Origin: an uncultured Erysipelothrix sp.
Lineage (GTDB): Bacteria > Bacillota_I > Bacilli_A > Erysipelotrichales > Erysipelotrichaceae
Length of the DNA stretch: 55,893 bases
Direction: 5' to 3'
Assembly (NCBI GenBank): GCA_947631935.1
Contig: CANRNG010000003.1
Location: 1-55,893, forward strand
The notes under the pieces are model-generated. The model was given only the letters and a program-made list of their open reading frames with translations. It had not been told where the DNA came from and made no database searches. Each line of letters starts with the position of its first letter. Position 1 is the first letter of the stretch. The position numbers were made by a program, and so were the translations under genes. Shown here one piece after another: positions 46,428 through 55,893 of this stretch.

Positions 46428-49145
46428 TTAGCCCTTCATTACGTCATGACAACGATCACAAAGACCGTCTTCATGAGCATGATCCACAACATTCCAGCAC
46501 CGTGGACAAATAACACCGTCATTAAAGACAACATCCACTTCAAAACCTAAAACTTCAGGCAGTGTTTCTTCCACAAAACTGACTTTAGATACGATGAGCC
46601 ATTGGGCTAAGCGTGATCCTAAAAGCTGGTCGACTAAAGCTTTATCTTCACTATTTAGGTTAAGTCTTACATGTCCTTCCAATGATTTACCAATCACTTT
46701 GGCAGCCCGTTTTTCTTCAAGTGCTTTAAACACGGCATCTCTTAATTCAAATAAACGCGTAAAGCCTTTTACTTCTGCTTCGGATAATAAATCATCATAA
46801 ACAGCCGCAAAACGATCTAAGTGAACACTTTCATCTTCGGGTCTGAAGATGCTGTTAAATTCCTCAGTAGTATGAACCAAGATGGGTGCCATCAGTCTTG
46901 AATAAACCATCAAAGCTTCATAAAGCACGGTTTGGATTTCACGGCGTGAGACTGAATCTGATTTCTCAATGTAAAGGATGTCCTTGGTGTAATCTAAATA
47001 GTAGGCACTCATGAGGTTGGTAAGTGCGGTACTGACCGTCGTGGTTACACGTTGGAAATCATAGGCCGTATAGGCATCTTGGGCAATCTTATTGTGTTTG
47101 TTGACTTCATTTAAAACATAACGATTCAATGGGCTCATGGCTTCATGAGATACTTTATCACTTTCGTAATCAAAATCAGCCAAGTTACCATGCATAAATC
47201 TGAATGTATTTCTAATTTTACGGTAGTTTTCAGACACTTGTTTTAAAATATTTTCGGAGAAAGGTGCATCGGATTGATAATCGACTGAAGCAACCCAAAG
47301 TCTAAGGATATCTGCACCCAAAGTATCAAAGATTGCTTTAGGACTTAGCGCGTCCCCTTTTGACTTACTCATTTTTTCCTTACCATCTTCTTGCATCACA
47401 AATCCATGACTTAACACCGCTTTATAAGGTGCGTGGTCATACACGGCAGATGAGATGATGAGTGACGAGTTAAACCAACCACGGTATTGGTCACTACCCT
47501 CTAAGTAAAGATCGACTGGAAGGGGTGCATTTTGCCCTGCAGTATGGGATGATCCAGAATCAAACCAAACATCCATGATGTCCTTCTCTTTTTTAAACTG
47601 ACCATTGGGACTGCCTGGGTGGGTAAATCCTTCCGGTAATAAATCTTTGGCTTCTCTTTCAAACCAAACATTGGAACCATATGCTTCAATTAAAGACACA
47701 ATATGTTTAAAGACCGCTTCATCCACAATCGGTGTTTCATCTTCAGCATAGATAATTGGAATGGGCACACCCCAAGCACGTTGGCGGGAAATGGTCCAAT
47801 CGCCCCGATCCTTAATCATGTTATACATTCTACGTTGACCCCATGCTGGCATCCAAGATACCTCATTATCAATGATTTCTAAAACACGTTCTCTAACTTG
47901 GTCAATGGACGCAAACCATTGGGTGGTTGCACGGTAAATAATAGGTTTTTTCGTACGCCAGTCGTGGGCATAGGAGTGGGTAATCCAACCTTGTTTTAAA
48001 AGTGCTCCCACTTCATGGAGGGCAATTGAAACTTCTTTATTGGCTTTCTCAAAAAACATGCCTTCAAAAGGTCCTGTAACGGCTTTTAAATGGCCCTTAT
48101 CATCCACAGGTTCAATCGGTTGAATACCATACTTCTTACATACCTCAAAGTCATCTACCCCATGGTCAGGTGCCGTATGGACACATCCAGTTCCTGCTTC
48201 TTCAGTAACATGGTCCCCACAAAGAATGGGACTCAAACGATCATAGAGTGGATGTTGGGTGGTAATGCCTTCTAAATCAGATCCTTTAAATGTTTTTAAA
48301 ACAGTATGATCCTCAATTTCGAGAACCTTTAAAACATTTTCATAAAGGGATTTACCCAACACAAGATTTCCCTTATCTGTTTTAACCAAAACATAATCCA
48401 TCTCTGGATTAACTGAAATGGCTAAGTTAGCAGGAATGGTCCAAGGTGTGGTGGTCCAAATCACGAAATAGTCCGATTCACTTAAGATATCTTTACCATC
48501 CACAACTTTAAATCTAACATAGATTTCCGGGTCTTTTCTGTCTTTATATTCAATCTCAGCTTCTGCCAAGGCTGTTTCACTGGAAGGTGACCAGTGTACC
48601 GGGCGAAGTCCTTTATAAATCATGCCGCGCAATGCCATCTTCGCAAAAATTTCGACTTGTTTGGCTTCATAACTTTTATTTAAAGTAATGTAGGGATTTT
48701 TATAGTCAGCAACTGTTCCCAGTGCTTTAAAATCCGCAATTTGAATTTTAACTTGTTCACGTGCATAGGCTTCACAAAGTTTTCTAAATTCAGCTACCGA
48801 CATTGATTTACGATCAACCCCTTGTTTTTGAATTTCAACTTCAATGGGAAGTCCATGCGTATCCCAACCAGGAATATAGGGCGTCTTATAACCTGCCATA
48901 AATTTAGAACGCACAATAAAGTCTTTTAAAGACTTATTTAAAGCGTGTCCAATATGGATATTACCATTGGCATAGGGTGGGCCATCATGAAAAGCGAAAG
49001 TTTTAGCACCTTCACGTTTGGCTACCATCTTTTCATAAAGTTCCATTGTATCCCAATCTTTTTGGATGAGATGTTCTTTCTTATTCAAATTACCGCGCAT
49101 CTCAAAATCAGATTTTGGTAGATGCAGTGTGTCCTTATAGTCCAT
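46428..49145 (-). CDS. ileS: Isoleucyl-tRNA synthetase
   Basis: This class I synthetase has about 905 residues. It has the HIGH motif in PYANGNIHIGHALNKS (about residue 64), the editing domain with TTTPWTIPAN and the GTGCVHTAPDHG site, KMSKS in EKMSKSKGD (about 600), an anticodon-binding domain, and a C-terminal zinc ribbon with CPRCW and CDRC. I take the ATG at 49145, about ten bases after AAGGAG; the ATG at 49154 is only one or two bases from it. Expression is governed by the T-box at 49170-49365. Confidence 0.96.
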   Translation of the reverse strand: MDYKDTLHLPKSDFEMRGNLNKKEHLIQKDWDTMELYEKMVAKREGAKTFAFHDGPPYANGNIHIGHALNKSLKDFIVRSKFMAGYKTPYIPGWDTHGLPIEVEIQKQGVDRKSMSVAEFRKLCEAYAREQVKIQIADFKALGTVADYKNPYITLNKSYEAKQVEIFAKMALRGMIYKGLRPVHWSPSSETALAEAEIEYKDRKDPEIYVRFKVVDGKDILSESDYFVIWTTTPWTIPANLAISVNPEMDYVLVKTDKGNLVLGKSLYENVLKVLEIEDHTVLKTFKGSDLEGITTQHPLYDRLSPILCGDHVTEEAGTGCVHTAPDHGVDDFEVCKKYGIQPIEPVDDKGHLKAVTGPFEGMFFEKANKEVSIALHEVGALLKQGWITHSYAHDWRTKKPIIYRATTQWFASIDQVRERVLEIIDNEVSWMPAWGQRRMYNMIKDRGDWTISRQRAWGVPIPIIYAEDETPIVDEAVFKHIVSLIEAYGSNVWFEREAKDLLPEGFTHPGSPNGQFKKEKDIMDVWFDSGSSHTAGQNAPLPVDLYLEGSDQYRGWFNSSLIISSAVYDHAPYKAVLSHGFVMQEDGKEKMSKSKGDALSPKAIFDTLGADILRLWVASVDYQSDAPFSENILKQVSENYRKIRNTFRFMHGNLADFDYESDKVSHEAMSPLNRYVLNEVNKHNKIAQDAYTAYDFQRVTTTVSTALTNLMSAYYLDYTKDILYIEKSDSVSRREIQTVLYEALMVYSRLMAPILVHTTEEFNSIFRPEDESVHLDRFAAVYDDLLSEAEVKGFTRLFELRDAVFKALEEKRAAKVIGKSLEGHVRLNLNSEDKALVDQLLGSRLAQWLIVSKVSFVEETLPEVLGFEVDVVFNDGVICPRCWNVVDHAHEDGLCDRCHDVMKG

Positions 49146-49169
49146 GTATTTCATTCTCCTTTTTTTGTA

Positions 49170-49365
49170 TATAAAAGGCGCCCTAAAGAATAGGACGCCT
49201 GAAGCGTGGTACCACCTAAATTCATGGTTAAACTACCATGCACTCATATGAACCTTAACGCGATTCTAACGGTATTCTTACTACTATTTCAGAAAATACA
49301 AACTCCCACGTGATATCAAAATCTGTAAACTCCTCAGTTTCACCCTACCTGAGGTCTCTATAAGT
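49170..49365 (-). ncRNA. T-box leader (isoleucine) with terminator
   Basis: On the minus strand the conserved T-box core AGGTGGTACCACG (49206-49218) is followed by the terminator hairpin formed by AGGCGTCCT and AGGGCGCCTTTT (49174-49200). Upstream, stem I begins just after the divIVA-like stop. An ATC triplet (49312-49314) sits in the region expected for the specifier loop, fitting Ile tRNA with a GAU anticodon. Uncharged tRNA-Ile binding should favour the antiterminator and switch on ileS. Confidence 0.92.
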
Positions 49366-49366
49366 T

Positions 49367-49840
49367 TTACATGCGATCTGATGTGTCGTGTTCTTCGTTT
49401 AATAATTTTGAATTTGGTGCCCCTGGAAGATCTAAACCTTCTAGGATTGACTCCATTTTTTTGAGTTTAACACCCAATTTGCCTTTTAGCTCGTGGGACT
49501 CATTTGAAATTCTTGATATTTCAATCAAGACCTCTCTTGCACTGGATAAAGCCTCTCTTATAATAATATCCGCATTAACATGCGCCGTATTAATTATAGC
49601 ATTTGCGTCTTTCATTGCAAGTCGCGAAACTTCATCACTGGCACGTTCACGATTTCCCATTTCACGAAGCAGTAAATCATAACGTCTTTTAGAATGATCA
49701 AGTTCAGAAATTACGGTCTCAAGTTGTTTTTTGAGCACCTCATTTTTATTTATTAAGGATGCAATATCTGATTCTAATTTTTGGCGATTGGATTCACTAT
49801 CCAATAATTGTTGTTGGGTTTTACGTGTACGACTGAACAT
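49367..49840 (-). CDS. DivIVA-like coiled-coil protein
   Basis: This 157-residue, largely helical protein has heptads at about residues 8-70 (LESDIASLINKNEVLKKQLE) and a second helical part (ANAIINTAHVNADIIIREAL, about 85-115) of the kind found in the DivIVA C-terminal domain. The canonical N-terminal membrane-curvature domain of DivIVA (with LTPxDI and Phe/Arg residues) is not visible. Its position between sepF and ileS is the normal place of divIVA in Firmicutes, so a role in division or wall-site positioning is inferred. Confidence 0.7.
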   Translation of the reverse strand: MFSRTRKTQQQLLDSESNRQKLESDIASLINKNEVLKKQLETVISELDHSKRRYDLLLREMGNRERASDEVSRLAMKDANAIINTAHVNADIIIREALSSAREVLIEISRISNESHELKGKLGVKLKKMESILEGLDLPGAPNSKLLNEEHDTSDRM

Positions 49841-51901: not shown

Positions 51902-53017
51902 CTATTTATCTTCATTTTCATAAGGCTTACACACTTTTTCAAGTGCAGAGGCAACTTGAGGGTGTGTAATGTGCCCATTATAGACATTTAATCCATTTAA
52001 AAGTCCCGGATCTTTTTCAAAAGATTGCTTAAGACCATGGTTCGCTAAAGCAAGCCCATATGGCAAGGTTGCATTACCCAAAGCTTGGGTTGCAGTCATG
52101 GGAACGGCCCCTGGCATATTGCCAACACAATAATGGACAATGCCCTCTTCAATATAAATTGGATTATCATGGGTTGTAGGACGGCTGGTTTCCGCAAAGC
52201 CACCCTGGTCAATAGAAACATCCACAATAACCGATCCAGGCTGCATCATTTTTAAATGATCGCGCATGATTAATTTTGGCGTTCTTGCACCCGGTACGTT
52301 AACTGACCCAATTACCAAATCTGCGGTCTTGAGTTCTTTTTCAATATTTTTGGTATCACTATACACAGTCTGAATTTGACCCCCAAAAACATCACTTAAA
52401 TAATCCAATCTCGATAAATCCTGGCTCATAACAGTCACATTGGCACCCAAACCAAGGGCTGCTTTACAAGCATTCATGCCCACAACACCCGAACCAATAA
52501 TGACCACATTACCACCCCGTACTCCGGCAACCCCAGACAGTAAAGTACCTTTACCACCATAGGTTTTTTCTAAATACTTAGCCCCTTGTTGCACTGCCAA
52601 GCGTCCTGCAATTTCTGACATTGGCTTTAAAAGCGGAAGATGACCATAGGAATTGGTGATGGTCTCATACGCAACGGCACTGACCTTCTTTTCCATTAGA
52701 ACCTCTGCCAAATCAGGATGACTGGCAAGGTGGAAATAACAAAAAACAATCTGGTTTTCACGCATATAAGGATACTCACTCACTTGGGGTTCTTTTACTT
52801 TGATAACCATGTCACAGGTTTCCCAAACTGTTTCTACATCAACCAAGCGTGCCCCCACTTCTTCATAATCACTATCCAAAAAGCCACTCCCCACACCCGA
52901 ACCTTTTTCCACAAAGACTGCGTGTCCAGCTTGAATATATTCATAAGCATGTGATGGAATAATACCCACCCGATTCTCAAATGAGGTGCGTTCTTTTACG
53001 GTTCCTATTTTCATCAT
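51902..53017 (-). CDS. ald: Alanine dehydrogenase
   Basis: This 371-residue enzyme converts L-alanine to pyruvate with NAD. Segments are MKIGTVKERTSFENRVGIIP (Arg/Lys substrate site), the MSEIAGRLAVQQGAKYLE region, NAD-binding VIIGSGVVGMNACKAALGLGANVTV, and HYCVGNMPGAVPMTATQAL. All conserved parts are present. Its product would feed the pyruvate dehydrogenase encoded in this window. The start overlaps the upstream HAD gene stop by one base. Confidence 0.95.
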   Translation of the reverse strand: MMKIGTVKERTSFENRVGIIPSHAYEYIQAGHAVFVEKGSGVGSGFLDSDYEEVGARLVDVETVWETCDMVIKVKEPQVSEYPYMRENQIVFCYFHLASHPDLAEVLMEKKVSAVAYETITNSYGHLPLLKPMSEIAGRLAVQQGAKYLEKTYGGKGTLLSGVAGVRGGNVVIIGSGVVGMNACKAALGLGANVTVMSQDLSRLDYLSDVFGGQIQTVYSDTKNIEKELKTADLVIGSVNVPGARTPKLIMRDHLKMMQPGSVIVDVSIDQGGFAETSRPTTHDNPIYIEEGIVHYCVGNMPGAVPMTATQALGNATLPYGLALANHGLKQSFEKDPGLLNGLNVYNGHITHPQVASALEKVCKPYENEDK

Positions 53018-53724
53018 TAAAACACTTCCTTTAATTTGTCTAAAAACTCAGCTCTGGATCCAATCCAGTCAGCTTCTTTTGTGTAATCTGTTTCGATGAG
53101 ATATTCATTGAGCAGCCAAGCATCCATCCCCAACTCCTTAACCACCACATCTTCATGAGAGTCATTACCAATCATCAAACAATCTTCTGCCTTTAATCCA
53201 TTAAAATCCAGTACTTCTTGGTAATAATTTAGATTGGGTTTACATGCCGAATGAATGGAATAGTTGGATATAAAATCAAAGTCATCAACCCTAAATCCAG
53301 AGTATCCAAGGCGACTGTGGACCGCCACTTCTGGAAACATGGGGTTGGTTGCAATAATGAGTTTATAGCCCTTGTCTTTTAGGTAATCGACCGCTTTAAC
53401 CATGGTCGTATTGTCTCCAATTTGTGTTTTTAAGATTTCAAAATCAGTTTGATAATAATTCAAAAATAATGGTTCCATTTCTTTCACCAAGTCATGACCC
53501 AAGATATCACCAAAGGATTTAAAGAATACTGTTTCGTTTGTTTCTTGGGTTTCATCTTTTAACATATCATCCAAAGATGACCACATTGCTTTAAATAAAT
53601 GATTGGGATCTACGTAATCTTTTAAGTGATTTCCCAAAGTGGGTAAATATGTATTCATAAAAGTTTCATTACTCATTGGCATCAAAGTACCATCTAAATC
53701 AAATAATATCGCTTTATATTTCAT
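53017..53724 (-). CDS. HAD-family hydrolase
   Basis: This 235-residue protein has HAD motif I ILFDLDGTLMPMSNETF, a helical cap, motif II IIATNPMFP, motif III lysine in CKPNLNYY and motif IV MIGNDSHEDVVVKELGM. The substrate is unknown. It is the first gene of a pair with ald, divergent from the mgtA leader. Confidence 0.85.
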   Translation of the reverse strand: MKYKAILFDLDGTLMPMSNETFMNTYLPTLGNHLKDYVDPNHLFKAMWSSLDDMLKDETQETNETVFFKSFGDILGHDLVKEMEPLFLNYYQTDFEILKTQIGDNTTMVKAVDYLKDKGYKLIIATNPMFPEVAVHSRLGYSGFRVDDFDFISNYSIHSACKPNLNYYQEVLDFNGLKAEDCLMIGNDSHEDVVVKELGMDAWLLNEYLIETDYTKEADWIGSRAEFLDKLKEVF

Positions 53725-53799: not shown

Positions 53800-53828
53800 T
53801 TGCGCTCTAGGTATGAAATTGGTACAAT
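53800..53828 (+). promoter_or_regulatory. Promoter of the mgtA leader transcript
   Basis: TTGCGC (53800-53805), 17-base spacer and TACAAT (53823-53828). Initiation near 53835 places the GGGAGG element at the very 5' end of the mRNA. Confidence 0.6.
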
Positions 53829-53839
53829 GGATATTGAAA

Positions 53840-53963
53840 GGGAGGTGGTTTGTTTGAAATCTCGAAGTTTGAATTCAGTAGCGTGTGGACAAAAGATGGA
53901 TGAAGACCCCGGGTCGCAAACCTCCCGTACTTTAATCTGTCTTCTGTAAATTAATTATAGAAG
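53840..53963 (+). promoter_or_regulatory. Structured mgtA leader
   Basis: GGGAGG and TTTG (53840-53845 and 53849-53852) pair with CAAACCTCCC (53917-53926), closing a roughly 90-base domain that contains GACC-CCG-GGTC (53905-53915). A second hairpin, CTTCT (53941-53945) with AGAAG (53959-53963), runs into the mgtA ribosome site. It looks like a regulatory leader. It does not match the M-box or yybP-ykoY consensus as I recall them. Confidence 0.5.
53854..53949 (+). CDS. Leader ORF upstream of mgtA
   Basis: A TTG eight bases after GGAGG opens a 31-codon frame ending at TAA 53947-53949, 25 bases before mgtA. Its middle reads QKMDEDPGSQTSRTLICLL. The internal Met followed by Asp-Glu-Asp-Pro resembles E. 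coli MgtL, whose Glu-Pro-Asp-Pro start destabilises ribosomes when Mg is low. The stop falls in the hairpin that shields the mgtA ribosome site. A competing TTG frame (53850-53903) exists. Real translation is untested. Confidence 0.45.
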   Translation: MKSRSLNSVACGQKMDEDPGSQTSRTLICLL

Positions 53964-53974
53964 GAGAGAATATT

Positions 53975-55893
53975 ATGAAATTTGATATTAAAACGATTCT
54001 AAAGTTGCAACATGATGCACTTTATAAAACGTTCAATGCTAAAGAAAAAGGCTTCACACAGGAAGAAGCTGAAGATCTACTAGAAGAAACAGGACCCAAT
54101 GAAATTACCAAACAATCAAAACCACATCCCATTATTGGGTTTGTGAATGTCTTGGTCAACCCCTTCAACCTCGTCTTGATGGTCGTCATTGCCATTACCT
54201 TTATCAATGATATTCTCATTGAAAAATCTGGTGATTACTTAACACTCATTATATTATCCGTGGTCGTACTATTTTCAACCTTGGCATCATTCATTCAAGA
54301 TGAAAGAGCCAGTGCTGCTGGAGAAAAACTTTTGGATATGGTATCCAATACCACCGCAGTCTTAAGAGATGGAAAATTTGTAGAAACCGCCATCAGTGAT
54401 ATCGTTTTGGGTGATATTATTCGTTTGTCTGCTGGAGATATTATCCCTGCTGATTTACGAATCGTGTCTGCTAAAGACCTCTTTCTTTCCCAAGCAACCT
54501 TAACTGGAGAATCACTCCCCATTGAAAAGTTTGTCTATCTTGATGAAGAAAATATGGACCAAGAAACAGACTACACCAACTTGGCCCTCATGGGAACCAA
54601 CGTAGTGTCCGGTTCAGGCAGTGCCATCGTCATCAGACGGGGCGACAATTCTTACTTGGGTAATATGGCCAAATCCATGCGTAACATTAAAGTAGTGAAT
54701 CGCTTTGAGGCCAGTATTTCAACCATTTCAAAACTATTACTCAAATTAATGTTTCTCATGTTACCGATCATCTTTATTATCAACGGTATCCTCAAACAAA
54801 ATTTTGTGGATGCATTCCTCTTTGCTTTAACAGTGGCAGTGGGTTTAACCCCTGAAATGTTGCCCGTGGTCTTAACCAGTGGCTTAAGTCGGGGTGCCAT
54901 CAATATGGCCCGCCACCAAACCATCGTTAAATCACAAGCATCGATTTCAACCTTTGGTGAAATGGACATTCTTTGTACAGATAAAACAGGAACCATTACC
55001 CAAGATGAAATTATCTTAGAACGCTATATGGATGTTAAAGGTGACGACGATATGCGCATTTTGCGTCATGCCTACCTTAACTCCTATTTCCAAAGTGGCC
55101 TTAAAAACTTAATTGACTTGGCAATCATTACCCGAGCTGAAAGCTATAATATGCATGACTTGATCAATTACTATGATGTTGTCGATGAAATTCCATTTGA
55201 CTTCGCAAGAAGAAGAATGTCAGTCATTCTTGAAGATGATTCTGGCAAACGCCAACTCATCACCAAGGGTGCTGTAGAAGAAATTGTGACAAACTCAAAA
55301 TATATTGACCGTGATGGTGAAGTCTTCCTACTGGATGATGCAACCCGTGAAGAAGCCATGGAAGTGTATACCCAACACAATAACGATGGTTTACGTATGA
55401 TTGCGGTCGCTCAGAAAAACAACGTTCCAGACACCCATGAATTTGCGGTAGAAGATGAATCCGACCTCGTATTGATTGGATTTATTGGGTTCTTAGATCC
55501 GCCTAAAGAAAGCGCAAAACCCACCATCGAAAGTCTTCACGATCATGGTGTGGATGTGGTCGTCATTACCGGAGACTCCTTGGGCGTGGCTAAAAAAGTA
55601 TGTTCAAAAGTGGGGATTAATACTGACATTACTTATTTGGGAAATGATATTGACGCCATGAGTGATGAAGAACTTGAAAATATTGTGGATACATGTAACC
55701 TCTTCGCTAAAATATCCCCCACTCAAAAACAACGCATTGTTCAAGCGTTCCAAAATAAAAATCATACGGTAGGATTTTTAGGAGATGGCATCAATGATGC
55801 CTTGGCACTCCAACAAGCAGACGTGGGTATCTCAGTGGATACTGCGGTTGATATTGCGAAAGAATCTGCCGACATTATTCTACCCAAAAAAGA
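53975..55893 (+). CDS. mgtA: Magnesium-translocating P-type ATPase (C-terminus outside window)
   Basis: The first 639 residues of a P3B-type ATPase are present. There is an N-terminal cytoplasmic part with QEEAEDLLEETGPNEI, two membrane helices, the actuator domain with SQATLTGESLPIEK, helices M3-M4 with VAVGLTPEMLPVV, the phosphorylation motif CTDKTGTITQDEI, the nucleotide domain with FDFARRRMSV-type segment, and VVVITGDSLGVAKKV and GFLGDGINDALAL. The PEMLP helix is typical of MgtA/MgtB. It imports Mg at low supply. AGGAG precedes the ATG. Confidence 0.94.
   Translation, partial: MKFDIKTILKLQHDALYKTFNAKEKGFTQEEAEDLLEETGPNEITKQSKPHPIIGFVNVLVNPFNLVLMVVIAITFINDILIEKSGDYLTLIILSVVVLFSTLASFIQDERASAAGEKLLDMVSNTTAVLRDGKFVETAISDIVLGDIIRLSAGDIIPADLRIVSAKDLFLSQATLTGESLPIEKFVYLDEENMDQETDYTNLALMGTNVVSGSGSAIVIRRGDNSYLGNMAKSMRNIKVVNRFEASISTISKLLLKLMFLMLPIIFIINGILKQNFVDAFLFALTVAVGLTPEMLPVVLTSGLSRGAINMARHQTIVKSQASISTFGEMDILCTDKTGTITQDEIILERYMDVKGDDDMRILRHAYLNSYFQSGLKNLIDLAIITRAESYNMHDLINYYDVVDEIPFDFARRRMSVILEDDSGKRQLITKGAVEEIVTNSKYIDRDGEVFLLDDATREEAMEVYTQHNNDGLRMIAVAQKNNVPDTHEFAVEDESDLVLIGFIGFLDPPKESAKPTIESLHDHGVDVVVITGDSLGVAKKVCSKVGINTDITYLGNDIDAMSDEELENIVDTCNLFAKISPTQKQRIVQAFQNKNHTVGFLGDGINDALALQQADVGISVDTAVDIAKESADIILPKK

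Follow-up and report, generated by a model that had tools for sequence, protein, structure and literature searches.

The mgtA gene and its leader

The window, by which we mean the whole stretch of 55,893 nucleotides that was analysed, ends within a gene for a type IIIB P-type ATPase that imports Mg2+ (Table 1). The product matches the TIGR01524 profile at 696.6 bits (cut-off 610.75) and, judged from its sequence, the gene downstream of the leader ORF is a true mgtA. A preliminary description of this DNA had placed in front of mgtA a GGGAGG ribosome site serving a TTG-initiated ORF of 31 codons, with Asp-Glu-Asp-Pro codons inside the ORF and its stop within a second hairpin that leads into the mgtA ribosome site. 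These elements are all present at the positions given in Table 1. The region also holds an overlapping, frame-shifted TTG ORF of 17 codons, but the conserved ORF is that of 31 codons.

The mRNA is predicted to start near position 53835, a few bases 5′ of the leader ribosome site; this start, which agrees with the earlier proposal, follows from a −35/−10 pair read by eye. A strict consensus promoter scan did not pick up the TTGCGC-N17-TACAAT pair. In the nearest orthologue (L009), TTGCAC-N17-TACAAT is likewise found upstream of the leader. No intrinsic terminator was found in the window leader, and its fold energy alone is unremarkable (z = −1.7, with 8 of 200 shuffles equally stable). The preliminary description had called for a search of Rfam and would have been refuted by a clean match to a known riboswitch without the ORF. 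No riboswitch or leader of Rfam 15 matched the window leader at the gathering score, and a permissive threshold gave chance matches only. The M-box (RF00380) is absent from both the window leader and the window genome.

Two further features on the minus strand were also recorded. A divergent gene for a HAD-type hydrolase lies at 53017-53724, and similar sequence is found divergently upstream of mgtA in most members of the genus. A T-box leader (RF00230, 112.9 bits) at 49188-49404 precedes an apparent ileS (46428-49154) and is ordinary.

Table 1. Positions of mgtA, its predicted promoter and the parts of its leader in the window
Feature	Position	Strand	Remarks
Predicted promoter: −35 TTGCGC (53800-53805), N17, −10 TACAAT (53823-53828)	53800-53828	+	Read by eye
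Leader Shine-Dalgarno GGGAGG (region 1)	53840-53845	+	Duplex with anti-SD, −16.0 kcal/mol
Hairpin H1, closing stem 53840-53846/53920-53926 (GGGAGGU/ACCUCCC)	53840-53926	+	Covers the leader's own ribosome site
Leader ORF, TTG start, 31 codons, MKSRSLNSVACGQKMDEDPGSQTSRTLICLL, stop TAA at 53947-53949	53854-53949	+	
Acidic-proline codons GAT GAA GAC CCC (D16-E17-D18-P19)	53899-53910	+	Conserved as D-[DE]-D-P
Region 2, GAAGAC (Glu17-Asp18 codons)	53902-53907	+	Can pair with region 3 as antisequestor
CAAACCTCCC	53917-53926	+	From sequence
Hairpin H2 (sequestor)	53936-53967	+	Leader stop in 5′ arm, mgtA ribosome site in 3′ arm
Region 3, GUCUUC	53939-53944	+	In 5′ arm of H2; partner of region 2
mgtA Shine-Dalgarno AGGAGA	53962-53967	+	From sequence
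mgtA, Mg2+-importing P-type ATPase (type IIIB)	53975-55893	+	3′ end cut by contig end

Conservation of the leader peptide in the genus

A DNA search of 60 relatives with the window leader gave no match except itself, and homologous leaders surfaced only through the regions upstream of mgtA orthologues. Eleven other members of the genus carry an mgtA orthologue 73-81% identical to that of the window. Of the 11 orthologues, 10 are preceded by a leader ORF that has a ribosome site of its own and a D-[DE]-D-P motif (for example MEGQSCMNDSISERSLDDDPLGTPQESHR and MEDQSCIFKSCTECSLDDDPLGFTSWIVSN; in the nearest relative, MNPRSCYSNICGQILDEDPCNTTDFNLIIYCPYNS). A lack of conservation of the ORF or the pairing among relatives, which would have refuted the earlier proposal, was not encountered. 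The remaining genus member, L017 (genome G012), has no leader ORF before its mgtA. A second mgtA in that genome is preceded by an M-box.

In all leader-bearing members of the genus the D[DE]DP motif falls at codons 16-20, and most also have Glu2. The spacing between start and motif is constant, with 16 codons before the motif in one clade and 15 in the clade of the window, and the sequence in the middle of the ORF drifts while its length is kept in whole codons. Within the D[DE]DP codons the first and second positions are invariant and the third positions vary; the sole amino-acid exchange is between Asp and Glu. Codons that differ among genus members have a mean BLOSUM score of 1.74 in frame, compared with −0.47 expected, and score below expectation in both other frames. 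Variable codon positions are distributed as 17 third, 8 first and 9 second. Using column shuffles, we found coding constraint at p=0.0005 across five lineages of the genus, at p=0.0015 when only the conserved parts were used and the window lineage was included, and at p=0.019 when the window was compared with its nearest relative alone. The conserved ORF, its motif and the coding constraint are thus computed observations. The leader fulfils the description of a short ORF that has a ribosome site, lies immediately 5′ of a Mg2+ P-type ATPase gene and is selected as a peptide. It also has the acidic or acidic-proline stretch within the first 30 residues that is expected of a leader of the MgtL/mgtQ type.

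We place the leader above chance because relatives share the ORF and its reading frame, the D[DE]DP motif, the pairing of SD with anti-SD and a hairpin over the mgtA ribosome site. The only mild stability of the window fold (z −1.7) could be taken to point to a chance ORF in a structured 5′ UTR. However, the conservation of ORF, frame, motif and pairing, together with the absence of a comparable ORF from all 40 control upstream regions, makes this explanation very unlikely, and we hardly entertain it. That the leader peptide is functional and acts on mgtA in some way is an inference in which we have high confidence.

Pairing in the leader and the position of the ribosome

The preliminary description had noted that GGGAGG pairs with a downstream segment that would hide the leader's own ribosome site. 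An equivalent pairing was found in all nine distinct leader sequences, where the stretch straight after the Pro codon is the partner of the leader ribosome site. The arms of H1 co-vary (GAGGUG/CACCUC, GAGGUA/UACCUC, GUGGUA/UACCAC and GGGAGGU/ACCUCCC). Since the 3′ arm lies in different reading frames, the pairing is not a by-product of the codons. When H1 was compared with shuffles of its own 3′ arm, significance was reached for some members only; its weight comes from the recurrence of the pairing in nine sequences. Folding placed a hairpin over the mgtA ribosome site in the orthologues as well.

The effect of ribosome position was computed by folding the leaders with the ribosome-covered bases kept single-stranded and determining how much energy is needed to open the mgtA ribosome site. 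For the window leader this cost was 6.6 kcal/mol either with a ribosome at DEDP or for the RNA alone, and 1.0 kcal/mol when the leader start alone was occupied, as would be expected once a ribosome has aborted at DEDP. No switch as large arose in 120 codon-shuffled leaders, and the result was independent of the footprint chosen. The same direction was obtained in eight of the nine leaders, window included; for the other seven, p ranged from 0.02 to 0.05 (40 shuffles each, larger footprint). Orthologue L013 showed no switch in this ribosome-mask folding. With that exception, the folding gives mutually exclusive structures set by the position of the ribosome, as is required of an mgtQ-type attenuator. 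Like the SD/anti-SD pairing and the hairpin over the mgtA site, this exposure of the mgtA site according to ribosome position is a computed result.

The switch in the window leader arises because GAAGAC (region 2) can pair with GUCUUC (region 3) in the 5′ arm of H2. On its own, the pairing of regions 2 and 3 is weak when compared with shuffles (combined p=0.035; window alone p=0.43). That codons 12-18 pair with the H2 arm in all members is a pattern seen by eye and only weakly better than shuffles. Consequently, the claim of a switch rests on the ensemble calculation.

Leaders of other kinds occupy the same position in two other genera of the window's family, Erysipelotrichaceae. One genus (loci L053-L072) has leaders of the type MEA[TSG]E[VI]PLSC, in which GGCGGC can pair with GCCGCC, a segment whose partner is otherwise the mgtA ribosome site GGAGGC. 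Conservation of GGCGGC is at the level of RNA, since it occurs in three reading frames, whereas in the MEAxExPLS part it is the peptide that is conserved. The other genus has leaders containing [DN]DYHSR, with the same logic. In these two genera a ribosome in the middle of the ORF closes the mgtA site more than an initiating one does, on average by 5.2 and 5.0 kcal/mol, and as far as the folding model goes the switch is clearer and of larger amplitude there than in the genus of the window. As a separate observation, codons 7-9 of the L053-L072 leaders, CCT TTA TCG (Pro-Leu-Ser), are invariant in eleven leaders, silent positions included. This invariance suggests a nucleotide-level constraint beyond the peptide.

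An unclassified riboswitch had been left as an alternative in the preliminary description. H1 might define a new class that binds Mg2+ or another ligand, with the ORF being incidental; the conservation of H1 with compensating changes in its arms would fit such a class, as would the silent-position invariance of CCT TTA TCG in the MEAxExPLS leaders of the related genus. However, Rfam gave no useful match, and the substitutions follow codons (17 third positions versus 8 and 9; coding p=0.0005). The middle of the ORF drifts yet keeps a whole-codon length, and elsewhere mgtA is preceded by unrelated acidic leader ORFs without an H1-type structure. The riboswitch is thus the less favoured of the two readings offered at the time, and we regard it as improbable.

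The other reading, a translation-linked Mg sensor resembling MgtL, is favoured by the in-frame conservation of the motif, the SD pairing and the predicted switch, in the absence of any Mg data. In the mechanism that we propose, the mRNA would begin just 5′ of the strong ribosome site and the 31-codon ORF. When Mg2+ is ample, ribosomes would read through Asp-Glu-Asp-Pro; a ribosome on DEDP would cover bases able to pair with the 5′ arm of H2, and H2 would hide the mgtA ribosome site. Under Mg2+ shortage, ribosomes would be destabilized on the acidic-proline stretch and drop off. The next ribosome would occupy the leader start, leaving the DEDP codons free to pair with the H2 5′ arm and thereby to expose the mgtA ribosome site. 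Translation of the leader ORF, Mg-dependent abortion at the motif and a resulting rise in mgtA expression are all inferred. We believe it probable, though well short of assured, that mgtA is controlled by a leader peptide switch of the MgtL/mgtQ kind that acts in cis and responds to Mg2+.

Folding does not settle the direction of the response. According to the folding model, a ribosome at codons 25-31, towards the end of the window ORF, disrupts H2 and likewise frees the mgtA site, and in most orthologues a ribosome at the leader stop does so too. Completed translation might therefore activate mgtA as well. Translational coupling would make mgtA translation possible only once a ribosome finishes the leader ORF and opens H2; the sensor would then be H1, for example through Mg-dependent folding, and the acidic-proline motif would set ribosome spacing or reduce mgtA. 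In most orthologues, opening the mgtA site costs only about 1-3 kcal/mol when a ribosome is at the leader stop, compared with 4-9 kcal/mol otherwise, and the stop lies in or beside the 5′ arm of H2, 23-45 bases from the mgtA start. Coupling is difficult to reconcile with the motif, since at low Mg2+ D[DE]DP should reduce the flux of ribosomes to the stop and so lower the Mg importer, which makes little adaptive sense. Moreover, a ribosome bound at the window stop would sit no more than 25 bases from the mgtA start, and in the related genus with DDYHS-type leaders most leaders stay closed at the mgtA site with a ribosome at the stop. We consider coupling unlikely, although it deserves to be kept in view.

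Acidic leaders across Bacillota and known Mg2+ leader systems

We also examined a wider set of mgtA loci, selecting leaders without regard to amino acids; the criteria were an ATG start, a strong ribosome site, a length of 12-45 codons and an end 8-130 bases upstream. Such a leader was found at 65 of 155 mgtA loci and at none of 40 control P-type ATPases of the same family (Fisher p about 1e-8). After removal of near-identical peptides, 31 of 45 distinct mgtA leaders had Asp or Glu at codon 2, compared with 2 of 42 window genes and 27 of 197 main genes; against a 20% background this gives p=2e-12. Proline is not concentrated at one place across the distinct leaders, and leaders without proline exist. 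Acidic leaders precede mgtA in other Erysipelotrichaceae, in Clostridia, in Lactococcus and in others. Examples are those of Clostridium gallinarum (MEEGSSKVINSLEE), Lactococcus cremoris (MESQSINSPEPERPQ), Lacrimispora (METGSQCGPDPDGR), Streptococcus (MIQIDDHPEPHR), Trichococcus (MDEGSSTGIG) and Tissierellia (MEDPDTDG). Few leaders were found in the phylum-level genomes, many of which read through TGA.

These data bear on a further explanation, that the leader peptide senses a signal other than Mg2+, such as charged tRNA-Pro, EF-P or ABC-F activity or translation stress, and adjusts mgtA accordingly. The motif does contain Pro, ribosomes of Bacillus subtilis stall on Asp-Pro repeats and are relieved by EF-P or YfmR (PMC11381351), and EttA affects MgtL (PMC11282234). 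However, the feature common to mgtA leaders is an early acidic residue (codon 2, 31 of 45) and not a fixed proline, and we give this explanation little credence. The same data suggest that the acidic leaders elsewhere in Gram-positive bacteria also use the ribosome as a magnesium gauge.

Many of the acidic leader ORFs in Bacillota sit between an M-box and mgtA. The order M-box, SD-led ORF (mostly acidic) and mgtA was recorded at L108-L110, L114, L119, L127, L132, L134, L136, L154 and L160. This arrangement occurs in Clostridia, Lactococcus, Streptococcus and Trichococcus and places two candidate Mg2+ sensors on one mRNA. Seven members of the window's genus have a second mgtA paralogue (40-48% identical), which in six lies behind an M-box (L020-L026, L028-L031, L038). 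At some of these second loci another short ORF is found between M-box and gene, for example MQETTDAIDDDDWIYTHNF, with four consecutive Asp. Among nine M-box genes of Erysipelotrichales that resemble mgtE by eye, seven have no such leader and two have an acidic leader ORF (L241 and L248; MENAKPGGMETDR... and MEASVPDRRWTAEE...).

A broader proposal is that acidic, ribosome-destabilizing leaders are a general Mg2+ sensor for mgtA in Bacillota, with unrelated peptides in different lineages, often behind an M-box, which would give a single mRNA two independent Mg2+ gauges, and that in the species of the window the leader is the sole recognizable gauge. On this we find the arguments evenly balanced. 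If true, the nascent-peptide principle of Mg2+ sensing would be common to enteric and distant Gram-positive bacteria, and the many unrelated peptides would amount to a natural mutagenesis set for nascent chains that destabilize ribosomes at low Mg2+. Messenger RNAs that carry both an M-box and an acidic ORF (Lactococcus, Streptococcus, Clostridium, Trichococcus and others) raise the question, which can be tested, of why Mg2+ should be read twice, by RNA folding and by ribosome stability.

Mg2+ sensing through destabilization of the ribosome by a nascent peptide is so far known from enteric bacteria (MgtL, mgtQ). The kind of system is therefore not new; what is new is that it is predicted in Erysipelotrichaceae and, judged by the shared signature, elsewhere across Bacillota, together with the use of unrelated peptides that share an acidic start and the stacking with M-boxes. 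We found no paper describing mgtA leader peptides in Gram-positive bacteria, but subscription journals were mostly outside the search and priority is unproven.

Several known leaders can be compared with that of the window. The M-box (ykoK, RF00380) exerts Mg2+ control on the same transporter genes and precedes the second mgtA of several genus members as well as acidic leader ORFs in many Bacillota, whereas neither the window leader nor its genome contains one. The M-box leader of pe20 in Mycobacterium tuberculosis also has a conserved small ORF, uORF2 (Rv1805A), in a Mg2+-controlled leader (PMC12810186). There, the M-box controls uORF2 and the role of the peptide is unknown (PMC12810186), while in the window, without an M-box, the ORF itself is the proposed sensor.

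Escherichia coli MgtL is likewise a leader ORF directly before mgtA with an acidic-proline motif (EPDP); when Mg2+ is low, ribosomes drop off at this motif, Rho-dependent termination ahead of mgtA is averted and the gene is switched on (PMC11282234). MgtL thus acts through termination, whereas the predicted output of the window leader is access to the mgtA ribosome site. The motif also differs in position, being at codons 2-5 in MgtL; the window leader has K-S-R-S at these codons and DEDP at 16-19, and so does not satisfy a requirement for EPDP-like placement.

The leader mgtQ of Salmonella is also a short ORF with a strong ribosome site and destabilizing Asp and Glu codons before a Mg2+ P-type ATPase (PMC8092293). 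Its alternative stems 1:2, 2:3 and 3:4 decide access to the transporter ribosome site and free that of mgtB, which is control at the level of translation (PMC8092293). mgtQ lies inside the mgtCBRU operon and has 8 codons, with the acidic residues at Asp2 and Glu5, whereas the window ORF stands at the predicted 5′ end of its mRNA in a Gram-positive bacterium and has 31 codons with the motif at codons 16-19. Common descent is not claimed. The window leader nevertheless shares the logic of mgtQ: an acidic motif, a need for occupancy of the leader start, stems that exclude one another and an output at the ribosome site of the transporter.
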